A stretch of DNA of 20,204 nucleotides, taken from IMG/VR virus record IMGVR_UViG_3300044675_002201, positions 1 through 20,204 of that record; one strand, written 5' to 3'. The position numbers were made by a program, and so were the translations under genes. Origin of the DNA: a virus. Below, in pieces: positions 1,928 through 17,999 of this stretch (the stretch's first letter is position 1; each line of letters opens with the position of its first letter). Under the pieces are notes generated by a model. It saw only the letters and a program-made list of their open reading frames with translations, was not told the origin of the DNA and searched no databases.

Positions 1928-2063
1928 GGCGGCTATCATATGTCTACAGGTGTTAGGTGCGGTTATTGTCTCGGCGGGTTTAGGGCTGATCTTCGCACCG
2001 GCAGGAATCATCCTAGTTGGAGTGTTCATGATCGCATTCGCCGTAGCCCTTGAGAGGAACTGA
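1902..2063 (+). CDS. Small hydrophobic membrane protein
   Basis: Unassigned protein of about 53 aa. A short basic N-terminus (LRDSMRFR) is followed by a nearly continuous hydrophobic stretch with a central Ala-Pro-Ala-Gly break (IFAPAGII), consistent with two short transmembrane helices in a hairpin. It starts inside the terminase gene and ends just before the portal start, so it is probably co-transcribed and coupled to both. The GTG at 1902 is chosen for its strong Shine-Dalgarno; ATG 1917 is the alternative. No family is recognised. A membrane role is read directly from composition. A holin-like role is possible but the lysis genes lie elsewhere (18004-19087). Confidence 0.6.
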   Translation: MLRDSMRFRAAIICLQVLGAVIVSAGLGLIFAPAGIILVGVFMIAFAVALERN

Positions 2064-2067
2064 TCTG

Positions 2068-2877
2068 ATGTTAGGTGGACTTTTCAGGCGCGAAGTTGAG
2101 GAGCGTTCCATTTCCTTCCAGACCCTTTTCGCGTCTGGGGATAGCCTGAGCCTGACCACGCCTGCCGGTGTCTCCATGAACCAAGATGAGGCGCTGAAGC
2201 TGGGCACCGTTTACGCTTGTGTCCGCCTGATCGCTGATTCTATTTCGACGCTGCCGATGGATACGTTCCGTCGCGTCGATGATCAGCGCGTCGCGTACCC
2301 GCGCCCTGTCTGGCTCGACTCGCCCGAGGTTGGCATCTCACGGACAACGCACTTCTCGCAGGTACTGATCAGCCTACTGATGAACGGCAACGCCTTCATT
2401 CGTATCCTTCGTGATGATCAAGGCATTGCCGGTCTCGTCGTGCTGAACCCGCGTCTCGTCGAAGTGAAACGCAACCGCGTCACACTCCGACCCGAGTATC
2501 ACGTTGATCAGGGCCGCGTCATCATTCCGAATGATGAGATGATGCACCTGACCGAGCTGCTCTTGCCGGGAGAGTTGCGCGGACGGAGCCGCTCGACACT
2601 TTCGCGCAACTCTTTTTCGGTCAGGGCAGCACCCTCGGCGGCATCATCGAGTTCCCCGGATCGCTCACCCGTGAGCAGGCGAAAGACCTCGCTGATTCCT
2701 TCGAGGAGCAGCATCGTTCTGTCCGCAGGTCGCACCGGCCCGGCGTTCTTTTCGGTGGCGCAAAATATAGTCAGACATCCGCTGCGCCGAACGAAGCGCA
2801 GATGCTTGAGTCGCGTCAATACAGCACGGAAGAGATTGCGCGTGCGTTCCGATGCCCGCCCGCCCTGCTCGGCGTGA
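2068..2877 (+). CDS. Portal protein, N-terminal part (frame disrupted)
   Basis: First part of an HK97-family portal, the ring at the head vertex through which DNA passes. The ATG at 2068 follows AGAGGA (2053-2058) at good spacing. Family-like segments are LGTVYACVRLIADSISTLP, LISLLMNGNAFIRI and HLTELLLPGELRG, up to about position 2583. After that this frame yields a low-complexity Ser/Arg-rich tail with no portal character and stops at 2877. The genuine continuation lies in the -1 frame (TEPLDTFAQLFFGQGSTLGG, from about 2583). No canonical slippery heptamer is present at the crossover, and the family's usual helix between the LRG-S motif and the FFGQGS motif is missing. The gene is therefore probably broken by a small deletion, natural or artefactual. 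Confidence 0.8.
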   Translation: MLGGLFRREVEERSISFQTLFASGDSLSLTTPAGVSMNQDEALKLGTVYACVRLIADSISTLPMDTFRRVDDQRVAYPRPVWLDSPEVGISRTTHFSQVLISLLMNGNAFIRILRDDQGIAGLVVLNPRLVEVKRNRVTLRPEYHVDQGRVIIPNDEMMHLTELLLPGELRGRSRSTLSRNSFSVRAAPSAASSSSPDRSPVSRRKTSLIPSRSSIVLSAGRTGPAFFSVAQNIVRHPLRRTKRRCLSRVNTARKRLRVRSDARPPCSA

Positions 2878-3380
2878 CGACCCCCGGAGCGATGTCCTAC
2901 GCCAGCGTCGAAATGAACGGCATCCACTTCGTCACGTATTGTCTCCGGCCTTACATCGTCAAAATTGAGGATGCCTACAGTGCCCTCATCACCGGTGATG
3001 GCTACCTCAAGATCAACGTCGATGGCCTGCTACGCGGCGATCAACAGTCACGCTACGCCAGCTTCTCGACCGGCATCCAGTCCGGCTTCCTCTCCATCAA
3101 CGACATCCATCGCCTTGAGGACATGGCCCCCACGGAAGGCGGCGACGTCTACCGCGTGCCGCTCGCGAATGTTGATCTGGCCGCTGCGAACCTGAAAGAG
3201 ATGGAGATCAAGTCTGCGATTGCCGTCAAGCTTGTGCAGGCGGGCTTCGACCCGGCGGCGACGCTGCAGTCACTGGGCCTTGACGAGTTGCCGCACACTG
3301 GCCTCCCGTCCGTGCAGCTGCAGAACATCGCGCAGGTCGAACCGGAAGATCCGCAGGCAGCCTACCCGGTGGCATCGTGA
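2802..3380 (+). CDS. Portal protein, C-terminal part (out of frame with N-terminal part)
   Basis: Downstream part of the portal. The frame is open from 2538. Portal homology begins near 2583 (EPLDTFAQLFFGQGST, then GGIIEFPGSLTREQAKDLAD) but there is no start codon until ATG 2802. Typical features are the MLESRQYSTEEIARAFRCPP segment, FVTYCLRPYIVKIEDA and a C-terminal region ending in acidic and Pro residues. Expressed alone from 2802 it would lack the clip and wing region and should not assemble. A functional portal would need the two parts joined, giving about 437 aa or about 450 with the missing helix. The stop overlaps the next gene's GTG by 4 nt (GTGA), which suggests translational coupling. 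Confidence 0.8.
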   Translation: MLESRQYSTEEIARAFRCPPALLGVTTPGAMSYASVEMNGIHFVTYCLRPYIVKIEDAYSALITGDGYLKINVDGLLRGDQQSRYASFSTGIQSGFLSINDIHRLEDMAPTEGGDVYRVPLANVDLAAANLKEMEIKSAIAVKLVQAGFDPAATLQSLGLDELPHTGLPSVQLQNIAQVEPEDPQAAYPVAS

Positions 3381-3641: not shown

Positions 3642-5144
3642 TTGCCTTATTTTATTTCTGATACGGAGCCGGACTGTTCTGGGTGGGCGACCGTGAAGCT
3701 TGACGAGGGTGGTGAACCAATCACGATTCATTGTCACGCGACGAAGCAGGAGGCGATTGACCAGATGGTCGCGATCAGCCTGAAAGAAGGATTGGAGCCG
3801 GGCGGCGAGCGCGCACTACCTGATAACTATCGGCCCGCATTGGCTGACAACGTCCCGGAAGGCCGCGCCTGTGGGAATTGTTATTTCTACGACGAGTCCA
3901 ACGTCGAAGGCGACAAGGCATGGTGCGAACGCTGGGATGATTACGTCGATGGCGGCTACTACTGCAACGCATGGCGCGCCGATGAGGTAGATGATAATGA
4001 TCAGGAAGATACCGAAGATGACACGGATGACGAGCGACAGGTCAACCTCGAGCTGCCAGAGTATATCCGCGATGCTGCAGCGCGAGGATTGGAATACTAC
4101 GCTGATGGCTTGGCCGGGGATGGCGTAGTCGCCCGCACAATCCGTGAGGCTCGATTGTTGGCTGATGGGCAAGTGTCGGAAGACAAGGTGATCCGCGCGA
4201 GCGCGTGGGCCGCGCGCCACCTAGTTGACCTTGATGCGGAAGATAATCGTGACCCTGATGCGGATGGGTTCCCCGGTGCCGGGGCGGTTGCGTTCTACCT
4301 GTGGGGCATCAACCCGCTTGCGCCGCAGGCCGCCATCGAATGGTATGCGCGTAAGGCGGAGCAGATTCGCGAGGAGGAGCGTAGCGTGATTGTCGTGTCT
4401 GAACGGGCCGGTGCTACGATTGAGCATATGAACAGCACCGTCGAAACGCGCCGCATCACCGTCAACGAGTTCGAGATTCGCGAAGACGTTGCCACCGAGG
4501 GGATGCGTTTCGCCGGTTACGCCGCCGTGTTCGACTCGCCGTCGGAGCCGTTGCCATTCATCGAGCAGATCCGTCCGGGCGCATTCGCGACGAGTCTCAG
4601 CTCGCGGAATGAGATCAAGATGTTCGTGAACCATGATACGACGAGAGTGCTCGCGTCGAAGCGCGCCGGGACGCTGCGGTTGTCGGAGGATAGTCACGGG
4701 CTACGGGTCGAGGCTGACCTGCCGCCGACGACGGATGGTAAGGATCTGGCCATCCTGATGCGCCGCGGTGATGTTGATTCGATGTCGTTCGGTTTCAGTG
4801 TGCCGAAGGGCGGCGATGCGTGGTCGCCGGATGGTGCGACGCGCGAGCTTCGCGAAGTGCGGTTGCATGAAGTGTCCATCGTCACGGCATTCCCCGCATA
4901 CGCGGCGACGAGTGCGGGCGTCAGGAGCCTTGAGAATCTTGCGGCAGCGACGGGCGCGGATGCGTCCCTGTTGGATGCGGCGATCACGAAACTTGAGGCC
5001 GGCGAGATGCTTGATGATGAGGCCGCAATGCTGATTGAGAGTGTCGTGCAGAAGTTGCGTGCCGATACGACCATCGGGTCGGATGCGAAGGCGTCGCTTG
5101 AGATGAAGCGTAAGCAGCTTGATCTCCTCTTCGCGCGCGTCTAA
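3642..5144 (+). CDS. Multidomain head protein with HK97-type prohead protease (S78)
   Basis: Large head-maturation protein of 500 aa; simple S78 proteases are usually about 180-250 aa. Residues 1-57 form a small domain (PYFISD, DCSGWATV, TKQEAIDQMVAIS). Residues 75-112 are a four-cysteine domain (C77, C80, C95, C108) resembling HiPIP-like Fe-S modules. Residues 115-132 are an acidic linker. Residues 135-243 are helical (YIRDAAARGLEYY, WAARHLVDLDAE). Residues 265-430 are the protease, with H331 (VNHD), S382 in MSFGF and E410 before VSIVTAFPA. The tail (435-500) is helical and scaffold-like. The TTG at 3642 follows GCAGGA at 5-nt spacing and begins the first domain, so it is preferred. ATG 4428 (M263) may be a second start giving the protease alone. 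Confidence 0.85.
   Translation: MPYFISDTEPDCSGWATVKLDEGGEPITIHCHATKQEAIDQMVAISLKEGLEPGGERALPDNYRPALADNVPEGRACGNCYFYDESNVEGDKAWCERWDDYVDGGYYCNAWRADEVDDNDQEDTEDDTDDERQVNLELPEYIRDAAARGLEYYADGLAGDGVVARTIREARLLADGQVSEDKVIRASAWAARHLVDLDAEDNRDPDADGFPGAGAVAFYLWGINPLAPQAAIEWYARKAEQIREEERSVIVVSERAGATIEHMNSTVETRRITVNEFEIREDVATEGMRFAGYAAVFDSPSEPLPFIEQIRPGAFATSLSSRNEIKMFVNHDTTRVLASKRAGTLRLSEDSHGLRVEADLPPTTDGKDLAILMRRGDVDSMSFGFSVPKGGDAWSPDGATRELREVRLHEVSIVTAFPAYAATSAGVRSLENLAAATGADASLLDAAITKLEAGEMLDDEAAMLIESVVQKLRADTTIGSDAKASLEMKRKQLDLLFARV
4415..4420 (+). promoter_or_regulatory. Possible internal leaderless promoter before protease domain
   Basis: TACGAT lies 7 nt before an in-frame ATG (4428) at the exact boundary between the helical domain and the protease domain. 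TTGTCG at 4390-4395 could be a -35, although its 19-nt spacing is long. The arrangement matches the other candidate leaderless starts in this window. It could make a separate short protease of 238 aa. The evidence is a motif match only. Confidence 0.35.
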
Positions 5145-5268: not shown

Positions 5269-6453
5269 ATGAACGAGTATCTCAAGCGACAGACCGATCT
5301 CCGCGCATCCGCGTGGGAAGAGGCGAAGAACCTGCTCGACGCAGCTGCGGCTGAGTCGCGCGACCTGACCGCCGAGGAGAACGTGATTTATGATCGCATC
5401 TCCGAGGACATGGACAACCGCGCCCGCGTCATCGAGCAGATGACGAAGGACGAAGAGCGCGCGCAGCGCCTTGACGCCGTGGCCGCCAACGTCCGCACCG
5501 ACGAGGTCGCTCCGGCTTCCGAGGCCGACGACACCGAGATGGTGCGTGCCCTCACCCGTGGCGAGATCCGCAGCGCCAACTTCGAGAAGCGCGACGTCCT
5601 CACGTCAAGCACAGGGGCTCCCGTTCCTACGAGCTTCTACGATCAGATCATCCTCAAGGCCCGACTCGTCGGCCCGATGCTTGCCACCTCGACCATCATC
5701 GAGACGGCTGGCGGCGAGAATCTTCAGATTCCGCGAATCAACACGTACAGCGGTGCGACGGTCGCAAGTCAGGCCGGAACCATCGGTGAGTCCGATCCGG
5801 CATTCTCCGCGTTCATCACGATGAGTGCCTTCAAGTTCTCGTACATCACGCAGGTCTCGCGTGAGATGATCGAGGATTCTGGCGTCGACATCCTCGGCTT
5901 CCTTGCCGATCAGGTCGGTCAGGGCATCGGGTTCAACGTGAACTCGAAGCTGACGGTCGGCACGGGTACCGTCGAGCCGCAGGGCATCGTCGGCGCGTCG
6001 ACGCTGGGCATCACCGGCGCGACGGCCACGAGTGGCCTGTTCACCGCCGACAACCTGATCGATCTCGTCTACAGCGTGGACGGTGCGGCTCGGATGCTTC
6101 CGGGCGCAGGCTTCATGATGAACGGCGCTTCGATCGGCAAGACTCGCAAGCTGAAGGACACGGCTGGTCAGTACGTCTTCCAGCCGTCGCTCGCCGTCGG
6201 CACTCCGGATACCCTCCTCGGGTACCCGCTGTACGAGAATCCCGCCATCGCGGACGCTGGAACGGCTGCCAAGTCTGTCCTCTTCGGACACCTGCCGTCG
6301 TACTACGTGCGCACGGTAGGCGGCATCCGCGTGGATCGGTCGGACGACTTCGCGTTCTCCACTGATCTCGTTACGCTGCGCGTGATCTACCGCCTCGACG
6401 GCAACCTGCCGCAGGCGACGCACGTCAATCACTTCATCGGTGGCGCGTCCTAA
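5269..6453 (+). CDS. Major capsid protein, HK97 fold
   Basis: Major head subunit (394 aa). Residues 1-100 are charged and helical (scaffold-like delta domain) with heptad-like Leu/Asp/Glu spacing. From about residue 110 the mature HK97 fold follows: DVLTSSTGAPVPTSFYDQII, then NLQIPRI, FITQVSREMIEDS-like E-loop/P-domain segments, then MMNGASIGKTRKLKD, LLGYPLYENP and a closing DGNLPQATHVNHFIGG. The protease just upstream probably removes the N-terminal region at about residue 100-110; the exact site is not visible. The ATG at 5269 has a good ribosome site. A strong hairpin follows 16 nt after the stop, consistent with a highly expressed gene that ends a transcription unit. Confidence 0.93.
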   Translation: MNEYLKRQTDLRASAWEEAKNLLDAAAAESRDLTAEENVIYDRISEDMDNRARVIEQMTKDEERAQRLDAVAANVRTDEVAPASEADDTEMVRALTRGEIRSANFEKRDVLTSSTGAPVPTSFYDQIILKARLVGPMLATSTIIETAGGENLQIPRINTYSGATVASQAGTIGESDPAFSAFITMSAFKFSYITQVSREMIEDSGVDILGFLADQVGQGIGFNVNSKLTVGTGTVEPQGIVGASTLGITGATATSGLFTADNLIDLVYSVDGAARMLPGAGFMMNGASIGKTRKLKDTAGQYVFQPSLAVGTPDTLLGYPLYENPAIADAGTAAKSVLFGHLPSYYVRTVGGIRVDRSDDFAFSTDLVTLRVIYRLDGNLPQATHVNHFIGGAS

Positions 6454-6461
6454 CCGGTAGG

Positions 6462-6467
6462 TACAAT
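6462..6467 (+). promoter_or_regulatory. Candidate -10 element before the sugar cassette
   Basis: TACAAT directly after the capsid stop and just before the hairpin arm. It resembles an actinobacterial -10 and would place a start near 6474, upstream of the GT-B gene. No -35 is seen. It could let the cassette be transcribed independently of the capsid. Confidence 0.35.
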
Positions 6468-6469
6468 CG

Positions 6470-6501
6470 GTGGCTACCCGGCGGTGATGCCGGGTAGCCA
6501 C
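6470..6501 (+). terminator. Strong hairpin after capsid gene
   Basis: GTGGCTACCCGG at 6470-6481 and CCGGGTAGCCAC at 6490-6501 form a perfect 12-bp stem with an 8-nt loop. No U-tract follows, so it is not a classic intrinsic terminator. Partial terminators and mRNA-stabilising hairpins of this type are common after phage capsid genes. It separates the capsid gene from the sugar cassette. Confidence 0.6.
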
Positions 6502-6521
6502 TACGTTGATCGGGAGGGATC

Positions 6522-7781
6522 ATGACGAACAGGGCAACTCGCCGCAAGCTTGCGAAAGGCGGCGGCTCTCCGCCCGAGGCGGGTTCTGAGCCGCCGAGTG
6601 TGACGAGGCAGCGTATCCTCTTCAGCTCGAATGCGCCGTTCGCCCCTACGGGCTACGGCGTGCAGACTGCGCAGGTTGTGTCGCGGATGGCTGCTGATAC
6701 GCACGAGGTCGCCATCGCGTGTAACTACGGGTTGCAGGGTGCGGAGACTTCTTGGATGGGCGGCGTGAAGCTGTACCCGACTGGATCGAGCGGGTATTCC
6801 GATGACATCCTCAAGGCCCACTCTCAGCATTGGGCGCATGGCAGTGACCTGCCGAGCCTCGTCGTCGTCCTGTTCGATGTGTGGGCGCTTGAGAATCCCG
6901 GCATCCGCGACATCCCGAAGATTGCGGCGTGGGCACCCGTCGACCATCAGCCTGCACCGCCGAAGGTTGCCGCGTGGGTGAGCCGTCCGAACGTCAAGGC
7001 GTTGGCGATGAGTCGCTTCGCCGAGCGGATGTTTGCAGACGGCGGCGTCGAATCGATTTACATTCCGCACGCAGTCGAACCCGTGTTCCGACCGACGCCA
7101 TCATTCGCCGACGCTGAAGGCCGTTCCGTCACAGGCCGCGAACTGATCGGCGTTGACGAGGATCGTTTCGTCGTGATGATGAACTCAGCCAATAAGGGCC
7201 GCACCCCGGTTCGTAAATGCTTCGGCGAGAACCTGCTGGCGTTCGGCATCTTCGCGAAGAATCATCCTGATGCGGTGCTGTATCTGCATACGGAACTATC
7301 CGCAATCTCAACGGGCGTTGATTTGCCAGCACTGATCAAAGCTTGTGGCATCGCGCCGGATCAGGTGCGCTTCGTTGATCAGTACCTCTACAAGATGAAC
7401 CTTCCCCAGCAGGCGCTCGCCGCGCTGTACACCGCCGCGGATGTGCTGCTTGCTGTATCAGCAGGTGAGGGCTTCGGCGTTCCCGTGATCGAGGCGCAGG
7501 CGTGCGGAACCCGCGTGATCGTCAGTGATTGGACAGCCCAGACAGAACTCGTCGGTGATGGGTGGGCAGTCGAGGTACAGCCGTTGTGGGATCCTTTTCA
7601 GGAAGCGTGGTTCGCGACTCCGATGATTCCACGCATCGTGGACTCGCTGGAAAATGCGTACGCGGCCCAGCGCGGCACAAGCCAAAAGGCAGTGGCGTTC
7701 GCTGCTGACTATGACGCCGATCTTGTGTATGCGAAGTATTGGCGTCCGGCGCTTGAGCAGCTGGCGGCGTGGCAGCCATGA
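6522..7781 (+). CDS. GT4-type (GT-B) glycosyltransferase
   Basis: Retaining-type glycosyltransferase of 419 aa, expected to move a sugar from a nucleotide-sugar donor to an unknown acceptor. From residue 31 there is an N-terminal Rossmann-like domain with the acceptor-side motif APTGYGVQT (41-49). The C-terminal domain has ADVLLAVSAGEGFGVPVIEA, whose E316-x7-E324 pair binds the donor nucleotide-sugar in GT4 enzymes, then GTRVIVSD. Residues 1-30 are a separate basic and Pro/Gly-rich tail (NRATRRKLAK then GGGSPPEAGSEPP). The ATG at 6522 follows GGGAGGG (6512-6518). It is the first gene of a six-gene overlapping operon, with its stop sharing ATGA with the next start. Donor and acceptor cannot be read from sequence. 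Confidence 0.88.
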   Translation: MTNRATRRKLAKGGGSPPEAGSEPPSVTRQRILFSSNAPFAPTGYGVQTAQVVSRMAADTHEVAIACNYGLQGAETSWMGGVKLYPTGSSGYSDDILKAHSQHWAHGSDLPSLVVVLFDVWALENPGIRDIPKIAAWAPVDHQPAPPKVAAWVSRPNVKALAMSRFAERMFADGGVESIYIPHAVEPVFRPTPSFADAEGRSVTGRELIGVDEDRFVVMMNSANKGRTPVRKCFGENLLAFGIFAKNHPDAVLYLHTELSAISTGVDLPALIKACGIAPDQVRFVDQYLYKMNLPQQALAALYTAADVLLAVSAGEGFGVPVIEAQACGTRVIVSDWTAQTELVGDGWAVEVQPLWDPFQEAWFATPMIPRIVDSLENAYAAQRGTSQKAVAFAADYDADLVYAKYWRPALEQLAAWQP

Positions 7782-8458
7782 TCGAAACGGTCATCATCCC
7801 GGTGCTGAACCGCTACGACCTACTTGAGCGCGCCGTGCGCAGCCTCGGCAGCGTTGACACGTTGATCGTTATCGACAATGGTGGGAAACTATCGGATGAT
7901 GACGTCAGGGCTTGGTCAGCAAATGGCGCAATCCAGAATGTAGGGCGCGTATACGTTTGGCCGATGCCTTCCAACCTCGGTGTCGCGACGAGTTGGAATC
8001 TTGGAATCAAGGCAACCGCGCACGCGAACGGCTGGTTGCTACTCAACTCTGATGCGTGGTTCACGGATGGTGCTTACGAAGCTTTCAGTGCCGACACGGA
8101 AGGCGCGGAAGTTGTGCAGGCAGGCGTTCCGCCGTGGTGCTGCACTTGGATCAGCGCAGAAGCGATCAGCCGTGTCGGTTTATTCTGCGAACGATTCTAC
8201 CCTGCCTACATGGAGGATGTTGATTGGCAGGCCCGCGCAATCAACCGGGGTATTGAGTTCCGCTCGTCTGGCGCGCACGTTCAGCACGAGAACTCCAGCA
8301 CGATCAACTCGTCAGAACATTACCTGCAAGGCAATAAGCGCACGCATCGCGCAAATAACGCGATCTTCAGGGATCGGTGGGAAGGCGTCAGCGAGGATGG
8401 CGTACCCGTTGATGCTGACTGGGATCTCAAGATCAGGCTAGCGAACTCGTGGGCGTAA
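7778..8458 (+). CDS. GT2-type glycosyltransferase
   Basis: Inverting GT-A glycosyltransferase of 226 aa from ATG 7778. The N-terminus TVIIPVLNRYDLLERAVRSL is a standard GT2 opening. IVIDNGG and NLGVATSWNLGI follow, and NSD at 90-92 stands in for the metal-binding DXD, as in rhamnosyltransferase-like GT2 enzymes. MEDVDW (145-150) supplies the usual catalytic acidic ED motif. The ATG overlaps the previous stop (ATGA), so it is preferred over GTG 7769. No transmembrane segment is visible, so the protein is cytoplasmic. The last residues overlap the next gene by 10 nt. The sugar is not identifiable; the family is clear. Confidence 0.85.
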   Translation: MIETVIIPVLNRYDLLERAVRSLGSVDTLIVIDNGGKLSDDDVRAWSANGAIQNVGRVYVWPMPSNLGVATSWNLGIKATAHANGWLLLNSDAWFTDGAYEAFSADTEGAEVVQAGVPPWCCTWISAEAISRVGLFCERFYPAYMEDVDWQARAINRGIEFRSSGAHVQHENSSTINSSEHYLQGNKRTHRANNAIFRDRWEGVSEDGVPVDADWDLKIRLANSWA

Positions 8459-9276
8459 TCCGCACCATCGTCTCGGGCTACGGTTATTGGGGCGAAGTGT
8501 TGACGCGCAACCTGCTCGCCGATCCAGCATACTTCGTCGCCGGAGTGCATGACCCATCCGCTAGTCGGCGCGAAGCTGCACGCTCCGCCAACCTGTATAC
8601 GTTCCGCACCCTTCAGGATGCTCTAGATTTTGTGCCGCCCGATCTGGTCGTGATCGCTTCGCCAATCGGAACGCAGTATGAGGCCGCGCTGATGGCTCTT
8701 TCCCGCCACGCGAACGTCATGATGGCCAAGCCGGGCGTGATGCGTATAGCGGATCTGGAAAGCATTGATGCGCTCGCGCGCAGGAAGCGCCGCGTCGCAG
8801 TGATTGATTACACGATGCGGCACGCTGCACCCTTCCAGCGGATGCTCGACGCCTCTGACAAGCGCGGCAACATCATGAGCGTGGAGGCGGAACGGTTCGC
8901 GGTCGGGACGCGATCAACCGCTTCAATCCTTTCCGACGTGATGGTTCACGACATCGCGCTACTGCACGCGCTCAGTCCACAAGCTTGGCGCGTTGCCAGC
9001 GTCGACGCCGGCGACCACCACCTGTTCGTCCATCTTGAAACGGATGATGCAGCAGCGATACTGAAAGCGCGTACGGACGCGACAGAGCCGCGCCGATGGT
9101 TGCGCGTCACCGGAACTTGTGACTCCGGCGAGTGGAATCAACTCGTTACCACTTCCGATCAGACGCCGCTGCAGCTTAGTCTCAAGGATATGTCGCGACG
9201 CATCACAAGCGGCGATCACGATATGAACCTAGAGCACCGAGTGACGGCAACCCTACAGGAGATTTCAGCAGCATGA
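8449..9276 (+). CDS. Gfo/Idh/MocA-family oxidoreductase
   Basis: NAD(P)-dependent oxidoreductase of 275 aa. The Rossmann fingerprint GYGYWG is at residues 10-15, then LVVIASPIGTQYEAALMAL, the family Lys-Pro motif as AKPG (K94), and a DVMVHDIALLHAL segment (D163, H167, D168) that carries catalytic or substrate residues. It is shorter than the usual 320-360 aa, with a reduced C-terminal beta domain, but the core motifs are present. Members oxidise or reduce sugar nucleotides, for example the UDP-GlcNAc 3-dehydrogenases of WlbA/GnnA type. The GTG at 8449 overlaps the upstream gene, and the stop shares ATGA with the acyltransferase start. Adjacency suggests consecutive steps on one sugar, which is an inference. 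Confidence 0.82.
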   Translation: MGVIRTIVSGYGYWGEVLTRNLLADPAYFVAGVHDPSASRREAARSANLYTFRTLQDALDFVPPDLVVIASPIGTQYEAALMALSRHANVMMAKPGVMRIADLESIDALARRKRRVAVIDYTMRHAAPFQRMLDASDKRGNIMSVEAERFAVGTRSTASILSDVMVHDIALLHALSPQAWRVASVDAGDHHLFVHLETDDAAAILKARTDATEPRRWLRVTGTCDSGEWNQLVTTSDQTPLQLSLKDMSRRITSGDHDMNLEHRVTATLQEISAA

Positions 9277-9935
9277 TTGACGCGACCGTAAAGATTCGTG
9301 GAGATGTCAAGATCGGCAACAATGTCAAGATCGAGCCGTACGCAGTTCTCACCGGACCACTCTGCATCGGCGATGACGTCTACATTGGCGCGCACGCGGT
9401 CATCGGCGCGCCAGCACAGCATCGCGGATCGTATCCGTGCAGCCTCAACTCTCCCGACCGATCCGTCGGAGTGCGTATCAAAAATCGTGCATGTATTCGA
9501 GAATTCGTACAAGTCCATCAAGGCCTCACCTGCGAAACAATGATCGGCGAAGATGTGCTGCTGATGGCTGGCGCGCATATCGCCCACGACTCGCAGATTG
9601 GTGATGGGGCGACGCTCGGTAGTTTCAGCATCCTCGGAGGATTCACAATCATCGATGAGGAAGCGACGTTCGGGCAGGGCGTCGTAACTCATCCATGGAC
9701 TATCATCGGCGAACGCGCGATGGTCGGATTCAACTCAAGCGTCGTCAAGGATGTCATGCCGTTCGCCAAGGTCGCAGGCGCGCCCGCCCGCCTGCTCGGG
9801 TCGAATCAGCACCGCGACGATTCGCTGCCAGCTGCTTATCATGCGACGATGCTAGGCGCTGACGTCTGGGAACGCTGGGGCAGATTATTGGGGCAGCGCG
9901 AAAATATGCGTAAGCGGTGGGCCATCATTGCCTAA
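9273..9935 (+). CDS. LpxA-like left-handed beta-helix acyltransferase
   Basis: Acyltransferase of 220 aa with hexapeptide repeats (IG-D/N-x-V-x-I type, residues 5-45 and 88-160) forming a left-handed beta-helix. The middle follows LpxA: RIKNRACIREFVQVHQG (68-84) then LLMAGAHIAHDSQIGDG (96-112), with H102 and H105 at the place of LpxA's catalytic His pair. PARLLGSN is followed by a short helical C-terminus that is smaller than LpxA's. LpxA moves acyl groups to UDP-GlcNAc; related LbH enzymes acetylate amino sugars. Next to an oxidoreductase and glycosyltransferases, sugar acylation is likelier than lipid A synthesis. It overlaps its neighbours by 4 and 8 nt. Substrate unknown. Confidence 0.82.
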   Translation: MIDATVKIRGDVKIGNNVKIEPYAVLTGPLCIGDDVYIGAHAVIGAPAQHRGSYPCSLNSPDRSVGVRIKNRACIREFVQVHQGLTCETMIGEDVLLMAGAHIAHDSQIGDGATLGSFSILGGFTIIDEEATFGQGVVTHPWTIIGERAMVGFNSSVVKDVMPFAKVAGAPARLLGSNQHRDDSLPAAYHATMLGADVWERWGRLLGQRENMRKRWAIIA

Positions 9936-10587
9936 GCCACTACTGATCGTGATGAACCCGCGACGCATCACAGAATGTGTCGACGCTATCTCAGCGCTCA
10001 AGATCGATAAGGTCTGGGCGAAGAACTACACCGAGCGCCAACTCGTTGACGTCATCGCCGGCATCGTTGCCGAATCCGAGCACGACCTCATCGGAATCAT
10101 CTCGGATGATGCTCGGCCCGACCAAGCTGCGCTCAATCTAATACTCGACGCGCACGAGCCGGGCGCTGTCTACACGGGGTACTGCAACCTCAGTGAGCAG
10201 GATTATCGCGTGAACCTAAGCACGCATCCGCTGAAGGTTCAACACGAGGCGACAATGGATTGTTACTCCTTCATCACGAAGGCAGACCTCGAGGCGTGCC
10301 CAGAGCCGCTGATTCGTTCGTGGTTCGCCGGGCATTGTCTTACGTTCATGAGCCGCGACTTGTGGACTAGGTTCCCGTTCGGAATCGTTGATGTCGGCAA
10401 CGGAACACAATCCGACTATCACCTGTGCTGCAGGTTGCAAGAATCAGAAGTACCGATTTGGGCTGTCCGTGGCGCATTCATTGAGCACGTCAAGCGCTAT
10501 TCCAATACGGGTGATGATACGGCTGGCCGCGCGCTACTCGTTGGCGTCGAACCTGCGGAGGTCGTGTGGGATCTGCTGCCCGAATAG
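9928..10587 (+). CDS. Probable GT-A-fold glycosyltransferase, divergent
   Basis: Protein of 219 aa with no confident family match. LLIVMNPRR opens a short strand, DLIGIISDDARPDQAALNLIL (53-73) contains SDDA (59-62), which could be a DXD-like metal site after a hydrophobic strand, and FMSRDLWTRFPFG with SDYHLCCRL later mimics the acceptor-side and acidic segment of GT2-like enzymes. FIEHVKRYS near the end also resembles GT2 C-termini. The TTG at 9928 overlaps the previous stop by 8 nt; GTG 9949 or ATG 9952 are alternatives. Its place between an acyltransferase and a GT2 gene supports a sugar-transfer role, but the activity is inferred. Confidence 0.55.
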   Translation: MPKPLLIVMNPRRITECVDAISALKIDKVWAKNYTERQLVDVIAGIVAESEHDLIGIISDDARPDQAALNLILDAHEPGAVYTGYCNLSEQDYRVNLSTHPLKVQHEATMDCYSFITKADLEACPEPLIRSWFAGHCLTFMSRDLWTRFPFGIVDVGNGTQSDYHLCCRLQESEVPIWAVRGAFIEHVKRYSNTGDDTAGRALLVGVEPAEVVWDLLPE

Positions 10588-11120
10588 TCGTCGTGACGCC
10601 TAGCCTGCCGGAGCGTTCCGAGCTGCGCGCTGAGTGCGTGAACAGTGTTTCCGAGCAAACGCTCAAGCCTGTAGCGCACTTGATTCACATTGATCACGAG
10701 CGGAGAGGCCCGGCGGCGTGCCTGAACACTCTCGCCCGCGCAGCCGTTGACGCCGGCGCCGAATGGGTAGCACAGATCGCTGATGATGACATCATGCTGC
10801 CTCATCATCTTGAAACGCTCGTGACGCGGCTCGACGCTGACATCATCTACACGTATTGTGAAGTGGAAGGCCGCGGCGCGTGGAACCCGAATGCGCCATT
10901 CGACGCGGAACGCTTGCGTCAAGGCAACTACATACCGGCCACCACACTTATCCGCTCCGAGTTGTGCGCCGAGCTGGGCTGGCGAGCCGACGCGCAGCAT
11001 GGCTTCGAGGATTGGGATTTCTGGCTACGCGCCCTCGATGCGGGTGCCAGCTTCGCGTGTATTCCCGAGGTCACTTGGCTCTACAGGTTCCACGGCGAGA
11101 ACCTGTCGACGACGCTGTAG
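10566..11120 (+). CDS. Short GT2-type glycosyltransferase
   Basis: GT2 glycosyltransferase of 184 aa. VVVTPSLPERSELRAECVNSV is the opening, WVAQIADDDIMLPHHLETL carries a DDD metal site (73-75), and GFEDWDFWLRALDAG (147-160) carries the acidic ED motif. It is shorter than most GT2 proteins and ends soon after the catalytic domain (YRFHGENLS). The GTG at 10566 has GGAGG at 10557-10561 and overlaps the previous gene by 22 nt; GTG 10593 is an alternative. It is the last gene of the cassette. Its TAG stop (11118-11120) lies inside the candidate -10 of the next gene. Confidence 0.82.
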   Translation: MGSAARIVVVTPSLPERSELRAECVNSVSEQTLKPVAHLIHIDHERRGPAACLNTLARAAVDAGAEWVAQIADDDIMLPHHLETLVTRLDADIIYTYCEVEGRGAWNPNAPFDAERLRQGNYIPATTLIRSELCAELGWRADAQHGFEDWDFWLRALDAGASFACIPEVTWLYRFHGENLSTTL

Positions 11121-11123
11121 ACT
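11118..11123 (+). promoter_or_regulatory. Leaderless -10 (TAGACT) before connector gene
   Basis: TAGACT, then exactly 6 nt, then ATG (11130). No Shine-Dalgarno is visible. The TAG is also the stop codon of the upstream GT2 gene. It fits the TANNNT-N6-7-RTG layout of leaderless actinobacterial genes. No convincing -35 is seen. Confidence 0.5.
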
Positions 11124-11129
11124 GTACCT

Positions 11130-11747
11130 ATGGCGATCACGAATGGATACTGCACGCTCGCACAAGTGAAGGCCGCGCTGCGGATCACCGACTCCACCGA
11201 TGACACCCTGATCGAGGGCAGCATCGAAGCGGCATCGCGCCTGATCGATGGTTACACGGCCCGCAACTTTTATCAGTCCGGCACCGTCGCGCGCCTTTTC
11301 ACAGCGCCCGATCCGCTCTACTGCCCCGTCGATGATCTCGCAGGCACGGCAATCACGATCCAGACAAGTACGCAAGCGGACGGAGTGTTCGACGTCACGT
11401 TCGCCATTACGGATTATCAGCTGGAGCCGCTGAACGGTGTCCTTGACGGCATCATCTTCCCTTACAGCCGCATCCGAGCCGTCGGTGATTATGCTTTCCC
11501 GGTGCTGAGTGCGGCACTCGGTGAGCAGGCACTCGTGAAAGTCACGGGCGTTTATGGTTGGCCCGCCGTCCCGGATGCCATCGAGCAGGCCACCATCCTG
11601 CAAGCTGCGCGACACTTCAAGAGGTATGACAGTCCCCTCGGCGTCGCCGGCTTCGGCGACTTCGGAGTAGTCCGCGTATCGCGTTTCCTTGACGCTGATG
11701 TGCAGATGCTCGTTGATCCGTATAAGAAGATGCGGCTGTTCCGGTGA
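11130..11747 (+). CDS. Head-tail connector, gp6-like
   Basis: Head-tail connector (205 aa), expected to form a ring below the portal. The N-terminus YCTLAQVKAALRITDSTDDTLIEGSIEAASRLIDGYTAR is the typical helical opening of gp6/gp15-like adaptors. A beta-rich middle follows (LYCPVDDLAGTAITIQT), then VTGVYGWPAVPDAIEQATILQAARHFKRYDSP, the family's usual GWP and helix pair. The ATG at 11130 has no ribosome site and seems to be translated from a leaderless RNA. The stop overlaps the next GTG (GTGA). It is the first morphogenesis gene after the sugar cassette, which interrupts the usual capsid-connector order. Confidence 0.8.
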   Translation: MAITNGYCTLAQVKAALRITDSTDDTLIEGSIEAASRLIDGYTARNFYQSGTVARLFTAPDPLYCPVDDLAGTAITIQTSTQADGVFDVTFAITDYQLEPLNGVLDGIIFPYSRIRAVGDYAFPVLSAALGEQALVKVTGVYGWPAVPDAIEQATILQAARHFKRYDSPLGVAGFGDFGVVRVSRFLDADVQMLVDPYKKMRLFR

Positions 11748-13094: not shown

Positions 13095-13195
13095 AGACAG
13101 GCATCGCACCGAGCGTGCTGATGATGGAATCAGAGCGGATGCTATGGACGATGTGCGGCTACTTACGTTGGCGTAGCGTTCACGCCGGGGGATAG
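12792..13195 (+). CDS. Tail assembly chaperone, -1 frameshift product (gpGT-like)
   Basis: Longer chaperone of about 134 aa: the first 87 residues of the short form, then, after a -1 shift at 13046-13052, GEQSSHWLIASLAVETGIA and further to HAGG, stopping at TAG 13193-13195. The extension has a hydrophobic helical T domain (IAPSVLMMESERMLWTMCGYL), typical of the second chaperone. It has no independent start with a ribosome site. Its TAG stop is also part of the next gene's -10-like TAGACT. Confidence 0.75.
13046..13052 (+). promoter_or_regulatory. Slippery heptamer CCCTTTG for -1 frameshift
   Basis: C CCT TTG in the zero frame fits the canonical X XXY YYZ pattern. After the slip the reading continues GGA GAG CAG in the -1 frame, which is open to 13195. 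This joins the two tail chaperone parts, the best-conserved phage frameshift. The site was read directly from the frame. Confidence 0.8.
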
Positions 13196-13198
13196 ACT
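13193..13198 (+). promoter_or_regulatory. Leaderless -10 (TAGACT) before gp10-like gene
   Basis: TAGACT, 6 nt, then ATG (13205). The TAG is also the stop of the frameshifted chaperone. TTGGCG at 13168-13173 could act as a -35, with a 19-nt spacer. GGGGGA just before the -10 is too far from the ATG for a normal ribosome site. Confidence 0.5.
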
Positions 13199-13204
13199 AC
13201 GTTC

Positions 13205-13747
13205 ATGGCTACCAAAAAAATCCGCGGCCTCGATGATGCTCTGAAAACCCTTGGCAAGATGGACCCGGTTCTGAGGCGTCAGGCAGTGAAGCGGCTCAAG
13301 GGTGATGTCCAACCTATTGTCGCGGCAGTCAAGAGTGGAATGCCGACATTACCGTTGTCGAACTGGGTTGCGCCTAAGCAGTCGAGCGCCCGACGCGGCA
13401 AGGTTGAGGCCGGCCGTAGTGGCAAGGCTGGCACGCCTTACTGGAACGCTGGTAAGGCAAAGGGTGGAGTACGGTCGAGCGTCAAGAAGCAGAGCGTTCG
13501 ACAGATGAAAGGCAAGCAGATCCTCGTCAGCATTCGACAGAACAATGCAGCCGGCGTAGTCTTCGACATGGCGGGCAGGGCAACGTCGAACAATAAGCTT
13601 GATCGTAGCCTGCGAATCGCAGGTTATGGCACAGCTTCGCGCACGATGTGGCCGACGGTTGAGCGGCACAAGCCGCGCGTCCTCGCGTCAATTGATCGTA
13701 GCGTCGCGGATATGGAAAACGAAATCAACCGGCTACTGCGCCGGTAG
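13205..13747 (+). CDS. Basic structural protein, HK97 gp10-like
   Basis: Protein of 180 aa, very rich in Lys/Arg. It opens KKIRGLDDALKTLGKMDPVLRR (a helical N-terminus), has a middle Gly/Lys/Ser-rich segment and ends GTASRTMWPTVERHKPRVLASI, where the RTMWPTVE part resembles the C-terminal helix of HK97 gp10-type tail completion proteins. Unlike the usual order, it follows the chaperones and directly precedes the tape measure. Its start looks leaderless and its TAG stop lies inside the next gene's -10. Tail completion or tape-associated role is inferred. Confidence 0.5.
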   Translation: MATKKIRGLDDALKTLGKMDPVLRRQAVKRLKGDVQPIVAAVKSGMPTLPLSNWVAPKQSSARRGKVEAGRSGKAGTPYWNAGKAKGGVRSSVKKQSVRQMKGKQILVSIRQNNAAGVVFDMAGRATSNNKLDRSLRIAGYGTASRTMWPTVERHKPRVLASIDRSVADMENEINRLLRR

Positions 13748-13750
13748 AAT
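13745..13750 (+). promoter_or_regulatory. Leaderless -10 (TAGAAT) before tape measure
   Basis: TAGAAT, 6 nt, then ATG (13757). The TAG is also the stop codon of the upstream gp10-like gene. No Shine-Dalgarno or clear -35 is seen. Confidence 0.5.
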
Positions 13751-13756
13751 ACTCTT

Positions 13757-16138
13757 ATGGCCCCAATCATTATTCCCATCGGCGTCGACACGTCGGGCCT
13801 CACTCGCGGCTTGTCGCAGGGCACGAGCGGTCTTCGCAAGTTCGGCAAGATGGCGGCAATCGTTGGCGGTGCAGCTGCGCTCGGCGGTCTCGTTGCGACT
13901 GTGAAGGTCGGCATTGACGAGTTCATGGCGGCGCAGAAAGTTGTAGCGCAGACCGGAGCCGTACTGAAGTCAACGGGCCGCGTCGCCAACGTCACGGCAG
14001 AAAACATCGCTGAGATGTCGAGCAGCCTGATGGAGTTGACTGGAATCGATGATGAGGCAATCGCTTCGGGCCAGAATCTCCTACTGACGTTCACGAAAAT
14101 CCGGAACGAGACTGGCAAGGGAAATAACATCTTCGATCAGGCGACGCTCGCCATGACGAACCTGAGCGTCGCGATGGGGAAGGATCTAAGCTCAAGCGCC
14201 ATCCTTGTCGGTAAGGCGCTGAACGATCCCGTGAAGGGCGTCGGCGCATTGTCGAAGGCGGGCGTCCAGTTCACCGCTGATCAGAAGGAAATGATCAAGG
14301 GACTCGTCGAGTCTGGCGATGTGATGGGCGCTCAGAAACTGATCTTGAAGGAGTTGGAGACTCAGTTCGGAGGTAGTGCCGAGGCCGCCGGTAAGACACT
14401 GCCGGGCCAGCTGAACATCTTGAAGGAGACGTTCCGTAACACGGCAGCGGATCTGATTGCAAGATTCATTCCGGCCCTGACAACCGCATCGCAGAAGCTT
14501 CTCAACTTCGTCCGCGAGTTTGCGGCGCGCCCGACGTTCATCGGAAAAGTCAGCTTCATCGTTGAGTCGATCAAGGATGCGGCTGGTAAGAGTTACGCTT
14601 CCTTGCGTGATTGGTGGACTGAGAGTAAGACGATGGTCGGCCCGACGGGAGTTGTCCGTGTCGAGTTGAGCGGCAGCGCTGAGGTTCGTAAGGGCTTCCG
14701 CGAGTTGCGCGAACTCGCTGTGACTAACGGTGGGAATGCCGGTAAGGATTTTGCTGACTCGTTTTTTGAGCGCGGCATTGGCGGCAATGCTAAGGCATTG
14801 TTCGGCGGTCTCGGTGAGGTCGTCGTCGGTGTGTTCCGATTCACGGGACTTGAGGCAGCTTTGAGTTTCACTGGATCATTCGTGAACGAGTTTGCAATCC
14901 GCCTTTACGAACGGCGCGGTGAAATTGGTGACGCCATCAAGCGCGTCTTCTCTAACATTGATTTCTCTGGCGCTGCGAAAACTCTTGCGAAGGCTATCTT
15001 CGTAGGCCCGAAGGCCGAAGAGCGAAGTAATGTCAATCAGTTTGTCGGGAAGGTAACGAAGGCTGTCCGTCAGGCTGTGACGGCTGCTCGGGCAGGTATG
15101 GCGGGCCTCGGGTCTGCGCTTGGCGGGATGCTGGCAACTATCACGGGTACGTCCTCGCCGGATGCGAAGCGTGCTGCCGAGATTCGCGCGCAGCAGAAGG
15201 CTGAAGCGACTACGCGCGAGCGTGCGCGCCTGACGCTACTCAGGGATTCCGCTGCCACCGATGAGGATCTCGCGCAGGCGAAGCAGGACCTCGCCGATTT
15301 TGAGTTGGATGTTGAGGCTACTGCCGCTGAGGATCGCGTTGCTATCGCGCAGTCTGCGAATCAGCGCGCCATTGATGATCTTATTGCTTCTTTCAATCGT
15401 GGCGAGGTTGGTGCTAAAGACTTCTCCACGAAGCTTGATGCGATCATTGGCGCGAATCGTGGCGCAGAGCTGGGCATCGCGTTTGCTGATGCGTTCACTG
15501 GGGCATTGTCGGCACTGACTGGTGCCGCGACTGACATTCAGGACGTCGTCACTGCCAGCGGTAAGCCTCTCACGCAGCCCGTCAAGGGCACGCCTGCAGC
15601 TGATGCGGCTCGTAAGGCTCACGCTGATTGGAAAGCTGATCGTGCTGCTCGCCTGAAGGCGGCGCGTGACTTCCGACTCAAGAAGGAGCCGGGAGAAAAA
15701 ACAGGGAGGATCACGAAGGCCGAGCAGGATGAGATTGACGACATCATGCGGAAGTGGGATAAGGCGCATCCTGAGCCTGTCCGGATGGCGATGGGTGGCA
15801 TCCTGAAGCGACAAGTGTTCACGGCAGGCGAGGCCGGCCCGGAAGCTGTGATTCCGCTTGGGTCGAATAGTGCGATGAGTATGCTGCGCGATGCCATCGG
15901 TGGCGGTGGTGGTGGGGGCGCAGCGCCGACGTATAACATCGTCATCAACGCTGGCCTCGGCACTGATCCTGACGAGCTGGGTCGCACGATTGTCGAGACG
16001 ATCAAGCGTTATGAGAAGCGGAATGGTGCTGTCTTTCAGGGGCCGATTGTTACTACGCTTGCGAATGCTGCGGGTAAGACTTCAACGGCGAGTGCGGCTA
16101 CGGACTTCAATCGTGCGAAGACGCTCAGGAGTGGCTAG
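13757..16138 (+). CDS. Tape measure protein
   Basis: Tape measure of 793 aa, which sets tail length and is ejected with the DNA. At about 1.5 angstrom per residue this corresponds to a tail of roughly 120 nm. Residues 10-60 include a hydrophobic Ala/Gly-rich stretch (IVGGAAALGGLVATV), and residues 80-250 are a helical domain with tail-protein segments (LLTFTKIRNETGKGNNIFDQA, GKALNDPVKGVGALSKAGVQ, LPGQLNILKETFRNTAADLI). Long helical and Lys/Asp-rich regions follow. Residues from 679 have the frequent MGGI/FTAGEAGPEAVIPLGS motif, then a Gly run (about 715-721). No lysozyme-like domain is obvious. Confidence 0.92.
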   Translation: MAPIIIPIGVDTSGLTRGLSQGTSGLRKFGKMAAIVGGAAALGGLVATVKVGIDEFMAAQKVVAQTGAVLKSTGRVANVTAENIAEMSSSLMELTGIDDEAIASGQNLLLTFTKIRNETGKGNNIFDQATLAMTNLSVAMGKDLSSSAILVGKALNDPVKGVGALSKAGVQFTADQKEMIKGLVESGDVMGAQKLILKELETQFGGSAEAAGKTLPGQLNILKETFRNTAADLIARFIPALTTASQKLLNFVREFAARPTFIGKVSFIVESIKDAAGKSYASLRDWWTESKTMVGPTGVVRVELSGSAEVRKGFRELRELAVTNGGNAGKDFADSFFERGIGGNAKALFGGLGEVVVGVFRFTGLEAALSFTGSFVNEFAIRLYERRGEIGDAIKRVFSNIDFSGAAKTLAKAIFVGPKAEERSNVNQFVGKVTKAVRQAVTAARAGMAGLGSALGGMLATITGTSSPDAKRAAEIRAQQKAEATTRERARLTLLRDSAATDEDLAQAKQDLADFELDVEATAAEDRVAIAQSANQRAIDDLIASFNRGEVGAKDFSTKLDAIIGANRGAELGIAFADAFTGALSALTGAATDIQDVVTASGKPLTQPVKGTPAADAARKAHADWKADRAARLKAARDFRLKKEPGEKTGRITKAEQDEIDDIMRKWDKAHPEPVRMAMGGILKRQVFTAGEAGPEAVIPLGSNSAMSMLRDAIGGGGGGGAAPTYNIVINAGLGTDPDELGRTIVETIKRYEKRNGAVFQGPIVTTLANAAGKTSTASAATDFNRAKTLRSG

Positions 16139-17457: not shown

Positions 17458-17471
17458 AGGACAGGTAGAAT
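17432..17471 (+). promoter_or_regulatory. Promoter region before fibre gene (TAGAAT-N6-ATG)
   Basis: TAGAAT at 17466-17471 is followed by 6 nt and the ATG at 17478, as in the other leaderless starts; here the TAG is not a stop codon. A second possibility is TTGACT (17432-17437) with TATAAA (17453-17458) at a 15-nt spacer, close to the housekeeping consensus. Only a start-site map could choose between them. Confidence 0.45.
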
Positions 17472-17477
17472 AGACTC

Positions 17478-17999
17478 ATGCCCAAGACCTACACAGCTGC
17501 AGGCACCGTTAGCGCCGGCGACGTCTATACAGCGGCGGCGCATAACATCATCGCCACAGACGTCAACAACTTTATCGTGCCGCCTGCGGCTCGCGTGGGC
17601 AATACGGCGAATATCACTTCTTATACGAACAACACGGATATTACGTGGAACACGGAGACATATGACACGGACGAAATGCATAGTACGTCTACCAATACTG
17701 CGCGTATCACTATCAATACTCCGGGTATCTATAGCGTGCTGCTTCAGATCCGAGGTACTTGGTTGTCAACACTGACAAACATGGGATGCGCGATCTATGT
17801 TGATGGAGTTGAACGAGCAGTAACAGAGGTATACGGTATTTCAACAACTATTGGGGGATTGTGGGTTCAAGCAAATCACGTTGCCGAACTTACCGCTGGT
17901 CAGTATCTCACAAGTAGACTCTATTTTGGTGGTGCCACATCAATGATTATTGCAACTCCTTCGTATATGAGCGCAACATGGCTGGGCCGGACGTCGTAG
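17478..17999 (+). CDS. Probable receptor-binding fibre protein, C1q-like
   Basis: Tail fibre or receptor-binding protein of 173 aa. The N-terminus (YTAAGTVSAGDVYTAAAHNIIATDVNNFI) is a short attachment segment common to such phage proteins. The rest, PPAARVGNTANI to the end, has TWNTETYDTDEMHSTSTNTARITINTPGIYSV, the typical opening of C1q/TNF-like jelly-roll domains of phage fibres, then IYVDG and further strands. Base composition from about 17600 to 17980 is clearly lower in G+C than the neighbours: 17821-17880 has 25/60 G+C versus 38/60 at 18421-18480. This suggests recent acquisition or domain exchange, as often seen in host-range genes. Confidence 0.65.
   Translation: MPKTYTAAGTVSAGDVYTAAAHNIIATDVNNFIVPPAARVGNTANITSYTNNTDITWNTETYDTDEMHSTSTNTARITINTPGIYSVLLQIRGTWLSTLTNMGCAIYVDGVERAVTEVYGISTTIGGLWVQANHVAELTAGQYLTSRLYFGGATSMIIATPSYMSATWLGRTS

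Follow-up and report, generated by a model that had tools for sequence, protein, structure and literature searches.

A glycosyltransferase cassette between the capsid and connector genes

The window analysed here is the whole of virus record IMGVR_UViG_3300044675_002201 (IMG/VR), 20,204 bases long, and it carries a head-tail gene block. Six overlapping plus strand open reading frames (ORFs), here called the cassette, fill the slot between the genes for the major capsid protein (MCP) and the connector. We suggest that they probably constitute a phage-encoded, cytoplasmic O-glycosylation system for MCP. The slot and its two flanking genes are as follows.

5269..6453, + strand: MCP, HK97 fold, proposed glycan acceptor (PF05065, E 8e-52)
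6522..7781, + strand: gene 1, GT4 glycosyltransferase, constant first gene of the slot, proposed priming enzyme (PF00534, E 1e-9; phrog_2170, E 1e-32)
7769..8458, + strand: gene 2, GT2 glycosyltransferase with LNSDA motif, usual second gene, proposed extension enzyme (PF00535, E 8e-8; phrog_29879, E 4e-34)
8449..9276, + strand: gene 3, Gfo/Idh/MocA-type NAD(P)-dependent sugar oxidoreductase with a Rossmann domain (PF01408, E 3e-13)
9273..9935, + strand: gene 4, LpxA-like left-handed beta-helix (hexapeptide) acyltransferase with HIAHD motif, proposed to acylate a sugar (NCBIfam LpxA model, E 9e-37)
9928..10587, + strand: gene 5, putative GT-A fold glycosyltransferase outside any sequence family (predicted fold)
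10566..11120, + strand: gene 6, short GT2 glycosyltransferase with ADDD motif, a weak GT2 match (phrog_14775, E 3e-15)
11130..11747, + strand: HK97 gp6-type connector, right border of the slot (PF05135, E 6e-7; phrog_442, E 5e-18)

The initial annotation, made from the letters of the window, had described six sugar genes whose junctions overlap by 4-22 nucleotides (nt), and its coordinates, overlaps (13, 10, 4, 8 and 22 nt) and family assignments were confirmed. Four transferases are thus placed among virion genes, on the same strand and overlapping, in the interval between MCP and connector. Gene 4 scores 126.6 bits against the curated LpxA model, under the cut-off of 226, and also matches solved LpxA-type chains (E 3e-22). 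The pairing of a Gfo/Idh enzyme with an LpxA-like enzyme recalls the 3-amino-sugar routes of lipid A; an aminotransferase is absent from the cassette.

Gene 5 matches no Pfam or PHROG family. Its predicted model, of moderate confidence (predicted local distance difference test score 64), aligns with BcsA (Z 11.0), mannosylglycerate synthase (Z 10.7) and GalNAc-T2 (Z 10.1), and with many GT-A enzymes at Z 9-11 across most of the protein. The earlier label "GT-A-like" is borne out by this predicted fold, and we regard gene 5 as a putative GT-A fold glycosyltransferase. A profile comparison of genes 5 and 6 was uninformative (probability 3%).

The cassette enzymes retain motifs expected of activity. 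In brief, the GT4 motif GEGFG.P..EA is kept in 267 of 290 proteins, HIAHD in 29 of 36 LpxA-like proteins and LNSDA in most GT2 proteins, and the AKP motif of Gfo/Idh is conserved. At the DNA level the cassette had no match among phage records, and tblastn searches of genes 3 and 5 against phages found none either.

The slot in related phages

Loci of the clade to which the window belongs (the window clade) were found by scanning viral contigs with MCP, so that the sample is unbiased regarding the cassette. A GT4 gene lies in the slot at all 125 MCP loci with enough downstream sequence, in 121 of them directly after MCP, and a variable gene set stands behind it. The initial annotation had proposed looking for a capsid-side cassette in related phages, and had called the genes inserted and unusual cargo for this position. 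In this lineage the slot is normally occupied, and "inserted" is therefore misleading; the cassette is a standing, swappable module rather than stray cargo or a one-off insertion.

The 84 complete slots fall into 21 gene orders. A few of these include antisense ORFs, which probably arose from the way ORFs were picked, and the real count should be somewhat lower. GT4 is present in all 84 and GT2 in 73, followed by an MptE-like gene (45), LpxA-like (21), short GT2 (21), SDR epimerase (15), Gfo/Idh (11) and gene 5 (9). The place of gene 3 is occupied by the SDR epimerase in other cassettes. Further GT4 and GT2 types, methyltransferases and HNH or GIY-YIG homing endonucleases are found as well. 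The endonucleases, which may help to move or swap the gene sets, lie within the slot in L019 (3774-4286), L108 (3775-4398), L016 (1868-2341), L100 (10750-11439) and L166. In the MptE/Maf-like family C2, 8 of 8 members match PF01973 (best E 9e-5; the one score shown lies below the cut-off), and we considered its product as a candidate second protein glycosyltransferase. Loci L089, L109 and L110 carry a GT4-GT2 fusion of about 690 residues as the sole gene in the slot.

Distances between GT4 proteins track those between MCPs (r 0.96). Correlations of GT4 with other genes range from 0.86 to 0.96, as expected from vertical descent; MCP does not stand out among them, and GT4 shows the evolutionary behaviour of a core gene. 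Two isolates have GT4 in the same slot position, namely Pontimonas phage phiPsal1 and Microcystis phage Mae-JY09. In the latter, a cyanobacterial phage (L004), the GT4 is about 39% identical and lies one gene after the capsid gene, and MCP is not detectably related; the capsid-side placement thus crosses phage groups. In Streptomyces prophages, whose MCPs are 34-42% identical, the slot lacks GT4 and measures 281-514 nt where a connector is recognisable.

Loss of GT4 and of two capsid hydroxyls

The sister clade, that of phiPsal1, includes phages without GT4. In the MCP tree these fall into three distinct groups, each nested within carriers, and the branches starred on the tree force three changes; GT4 was lost at least three times. 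An earlier IQ-TREE run with fewer sequences had already separated the first two groups with support. PF00534 is absent from all 15 records of phages with an empty slot or with GT2 only (three of these records are 29-31 kilobases long), and the only matches to PF00535 in the 15 are in two GT2-only phages.

A cassette that acts on the capsid predicts acceptor hydroxyls that are retained in carriers and free to be lost in relatives without GT4. Among 262 MCP columns that are class-conserved in carriers, two are lost in all three GT4-less groups, positions 236 and 319 of phiPsal1, and both are Ser/Thr columns. When pseudo-loss clades were permuted from carriers, two such Ser/Thr columns arose with P 0.0023, and with pseudo-loss clades of at least two tips they were never reached in 20,000 draws. 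A likelihood test on the tree, comparing dependent with independent change, placed 236 and 319 at the top of 148 columns (likelihood ratios 22.1 and 21.4, 2 degrees of freedom; next column 11.8). The nominal p of about 2e-5 remains below 0.01 when corrected for all 263 columns. It should be noted that with two loss lineages the site loss was not significant by simple counting, and became so once more loci were added.

Position 319 corresponds to Thr332 of the window.

6262..6264, + strand: codon of MCP Thr332, candidate O-glycosylation site, equivalent to phiPsal1 Thr319 (column conservation and predicted model)

The predicted MCP model has the HK97 fold (Z 21.4 to the RcGTA capsid, 18.6-18.9 to HK97) and places Thr332 in a loop between predicted strands 319-323 and 335-341. 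We did not find a Ser/Thr-rich C-terminal MCP tail of the mycobacteriophage kind. The position is Ser or Thr in 137 of 141 unique window-clade MCPs and in none of the 38 GT4-less phages of the discovery set, which represent three lineages. It varies freely in the Streptomyces prophages (42% Ser/Thr). At held-out loci, all 18 carriers have Ser/Thr at one or both sites; the single empty-slot phage there has Ala and Leu at the two sites, and its nearest kin are all carriers. Neither residue is present in three GT2-only phages that have lost GT4, which points to GT4 as the priming enzyme.

A glycan on another virion protein, such as the tail tube, a fibre or a decoration protein, would leave the capsid residues to co-vary for other reasons, for example recombination of capsid and slot as one block. 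Throughout the window clade MCP and slot are physically linked, and the systems known from mycobacteriophages act on tail tube subunits as well (PMC12619734). Of the 576 class-conserved columns in portal, connector, second adaptor, tail tube and gp16, however, none follows the loss pattern (tape measure, fibres and protease lay outside the test), and replacements at 319 differ among the loss lineages: A, I, G, L or V in one, I, V or L in another, V in the third. Such differences fit relaxed constraint rather than one inherited block, and we hold this explanation to be quite improbable. The tail, which the initial annotation had included among the possible targets, thus found no support in the proteins tested, the tail tube among them.

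The enzymes might instead modify surface glycans of the host, blocking superinfection or reducing adsorption to debris, with the capsid-side place serving for convenient late expression. Superinfection exclusion was proposed by the authors who described glycosyltransferases of freshwater actinophages (PMC10202952), Pontimonas possesses many transferases and a polyrhamnose wall rich in sugars (PMC6106888), and variable cassettes would suit variable host surfaces. Such a role does not predict that MCP loses Ser/Thr alongside GT4. No transmembrane segment was found in the six cassette proteins (top 19-residue hydropathy 1.49) and no flippase component is among them; the membrane flippase and membrane-bound transferases of Gtr-type serotype conversion are therefore missing from this set. 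Neither the tyrosine integrase PF00589 (0 of 21) nor the serine recombinase PF07508 (0 of 13) was found in related records, some of which are fragments, and there is thus no sign of lysogenic conversion. We consider action on the host surface unlikely.

Glycosylation of the phage DNA against restriction is highly improbable. DNA protection has been proposed for related freshwater phages (PMC10202952), but the co-loss in MCP would be left unexplained, the cassette shows no link to replication genes, and several transferases together with acylation fit a protein glycan better. A thymidylate-synthase-type enzyme (PF00303) was found in 0 of 13 related records; some of these may be incomplete, and other routes to modified DNA exist.

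Borders of the slot

Three short features delimit the slot in the window.

6462..6467, + strand: TACAAT, -10-like box preceding the hairpin; in relatives of the nearest group it reads TAGAAT
6469..6502, + strand: hairpin closing the capsid transcription unit, 15 base pairs including one G-U pair; the window copy has no T-run
11118..11123, + strand: TAGACT, -10 box of the leaderless connector promoter, followed by 6 nt and ATG (layout 11118-11132)

The hairpin and -10-like box at the left edge and the leaderless promoter at the right edge had both been noted in the initial annotation, and both have counterparts in relatives. The junctions inspected there have a strong hairpin after the MCP stop, of unrelated sequence and often with a T-run. 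A TAGAAT-like box stands 5-9 nt before the connector start in 80 of 159 relatives, compared with 0.4% of random ATGs; no such box was found at the portal, protease, second adaptor or tail tube starts of relatives. Empty slots measure 41-171 nt from MCP to connector and hold little beyond the hairpin and the leaderless promoter.

The leaderless layout (TAGAAT or TAGACT, 6 nt, ATG) also occurs in the window at 13193-13205, 13745-13757 and 17466-17478. One of the three lies at the start of the tape measure gene, where 14 of 18 relatives keep the layout. The late genes seem to be divided into several leaderless transcription units.

A proposed capsid glycosylation pathway

We propose that GT4 would transfer the first sugar to a Ser or Thr of MCP, Thr332 in the window, and that GT2 and the further transferases would extend the glycan. 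The Gfo/Idh and LpxA-like enzymes, elsewhere an epimerase or methyltransferases, would make or trim special sugars. The lack of transmembrane segments in the six proteins is the reason for placing these steps in the cytoplasm. Since the genes stand between the hairpin terminating the capsid unit and the leaderless promoter of the connector, their content could be swapped or lost without harming expression of the neighbours. The benefit may be, speculatively, that the capsid surface is hidden from host immunity that senses capsids, or from other binders.

The initial annotation had suggested a single operon for virion glycosylation. This is supported by the constant capsid-side placement, by the loss of MCP Ser/Thr together with GT4 and by searches that did not find the machinery of the alternatives. 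It had held the target not to be visible in the sequence; Thr332 of MCP can now be named as a candidate acceptor.

Several points weigh against a capsid glycosylation system of this kind. No glycan has been observed; what the comparison shows is gene content, position, conservation, swapping and the linked losses, and from these the transfer to MCP, the roles of single enzymes and the benefit are inferred. Five carriers lack Ser/Thr at both sites: L309-L311 and L313, a divergent carrier clade, have Asp at both, and L306, whose frames are broken, also lacks the two residues. Within the window clade, 4 of 141 MCPs have Val at the Thr332 position, and site 236 is not conserved. Given these carrier exceptions, the five lacking both residues and the four with Val, some lineages probably use other acceptor residues. 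That the losses were independent is concluded from MCP trees, the held-out set has just one empty phage, and part of the pattern could stem from a change of host or from capsid and slot being exchanged together.

Comparison with known systems

The soluble, cytoplasmic O-glycosylation of Ser/Thr in serine-rich adhesins is performed by GtfA, a GT4-type enzyme. As proposed here for gene 1, GtfA primes the hydroxyls in the cytoplasm and other enzymes extend the glycan, a likeness drawn at the level of the GT4 fold family. The acceptor of GtfA is a repeat domain, whereas the acceptor proposed here is a capsid loop.

Virion glycosylation has been described for mycobacteriophages Che8, Corndog and Myrna (Freeman et al. 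2023, as related in PMC12363180, PMC11256854 and PMC12619734). As far as those accounts go, these too are actinobacterial phages that use glycosyltransferases of their own and carry glycans on capsid proteins. The glycans they describe are at C-termini, whereas the candidate site here is in an internal MCP loop. Transferases of the cluster F1 phage Maravista lie near the 3' genome end and not, as here, beside the capsid gene, and swapping of gene sets is the rule here, unlike in the mycobacteriophages. In tblastn searches at 1e-5, GT4 and GT2 had no mycobacteriophage match in the phage collection, and thus show no kinship to the Che8 gp110 / Corndog gp38 family at BLAST level; distant kinship is beyond the reach of this search. 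Capsid glycosylation is thus already known, and what is new here is a different set of transferases, a different gene place and an internal candidate site.

Among isolates, phiPsal1 (MG835450) has MCP, a GT4 (42% identical), a methyltransferase, a GT2 and a gp6 neck protein in the same slot. Its cassette is smaller, with the methyltransferase in place of the Gfo/LpxA pair and neither gene 5 nor gene 6; the paper from which this phage comes says no more about it. Like morons and metaviromic islands, the cassette of the window lineage consists of dispensable genes located among structural genes and is bordered by a promoter and a hairpin. It differs from these in being near-universal in its lineage, in a first gene that never swaps and in the matching change of a structural protein.

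Glycosyltransferases abound in phages, and the roles assigned to them, such as DNA protection or superinfection, are usually vague. The present system points to a specific target residue and to a priming enzyme, and within this widespread group of aquatic phages those with an empty slot provide natural controls. If it works as proposed, the shells of lake and sea phages bear lineage-specific sugar coats, and another selective force would be needed, since antibodies play no part in lakes and seas. Bacterial immunity that senses the capsid protein, as CapRel does (PMC9712102), is a candidate. A broader possibility, which we put forward tentatively and on somewhat less than even terms, is that in aquatic actinobacterial phages GT4 primes one or two capsid hydroxyls and the swappable set builds on them a lineage-specific capsid serotype, possibly evading sensors of new capsid protein.

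Structural genes of the window

The head-tail block encodes, in order, small and large terminase, portal, prohead protease, MCP, the cassette, connector, second adaptor, tail tube and tape measure, followed by further tail genes and a probable lysin. Several of the structural gene names rest on gene order in common with phiPsal1. The prohead protease ORF lacks about 391 bases of the near-identical contig L008 at window positions 4026-4029, giving 500 residues compared with 630. The portal gene (2050-3380) is split into two frames in the window and whole in L008, from which the window is short of a few tens of bases near 2587-2596; the break is probably an assembly fault or a strain variant.

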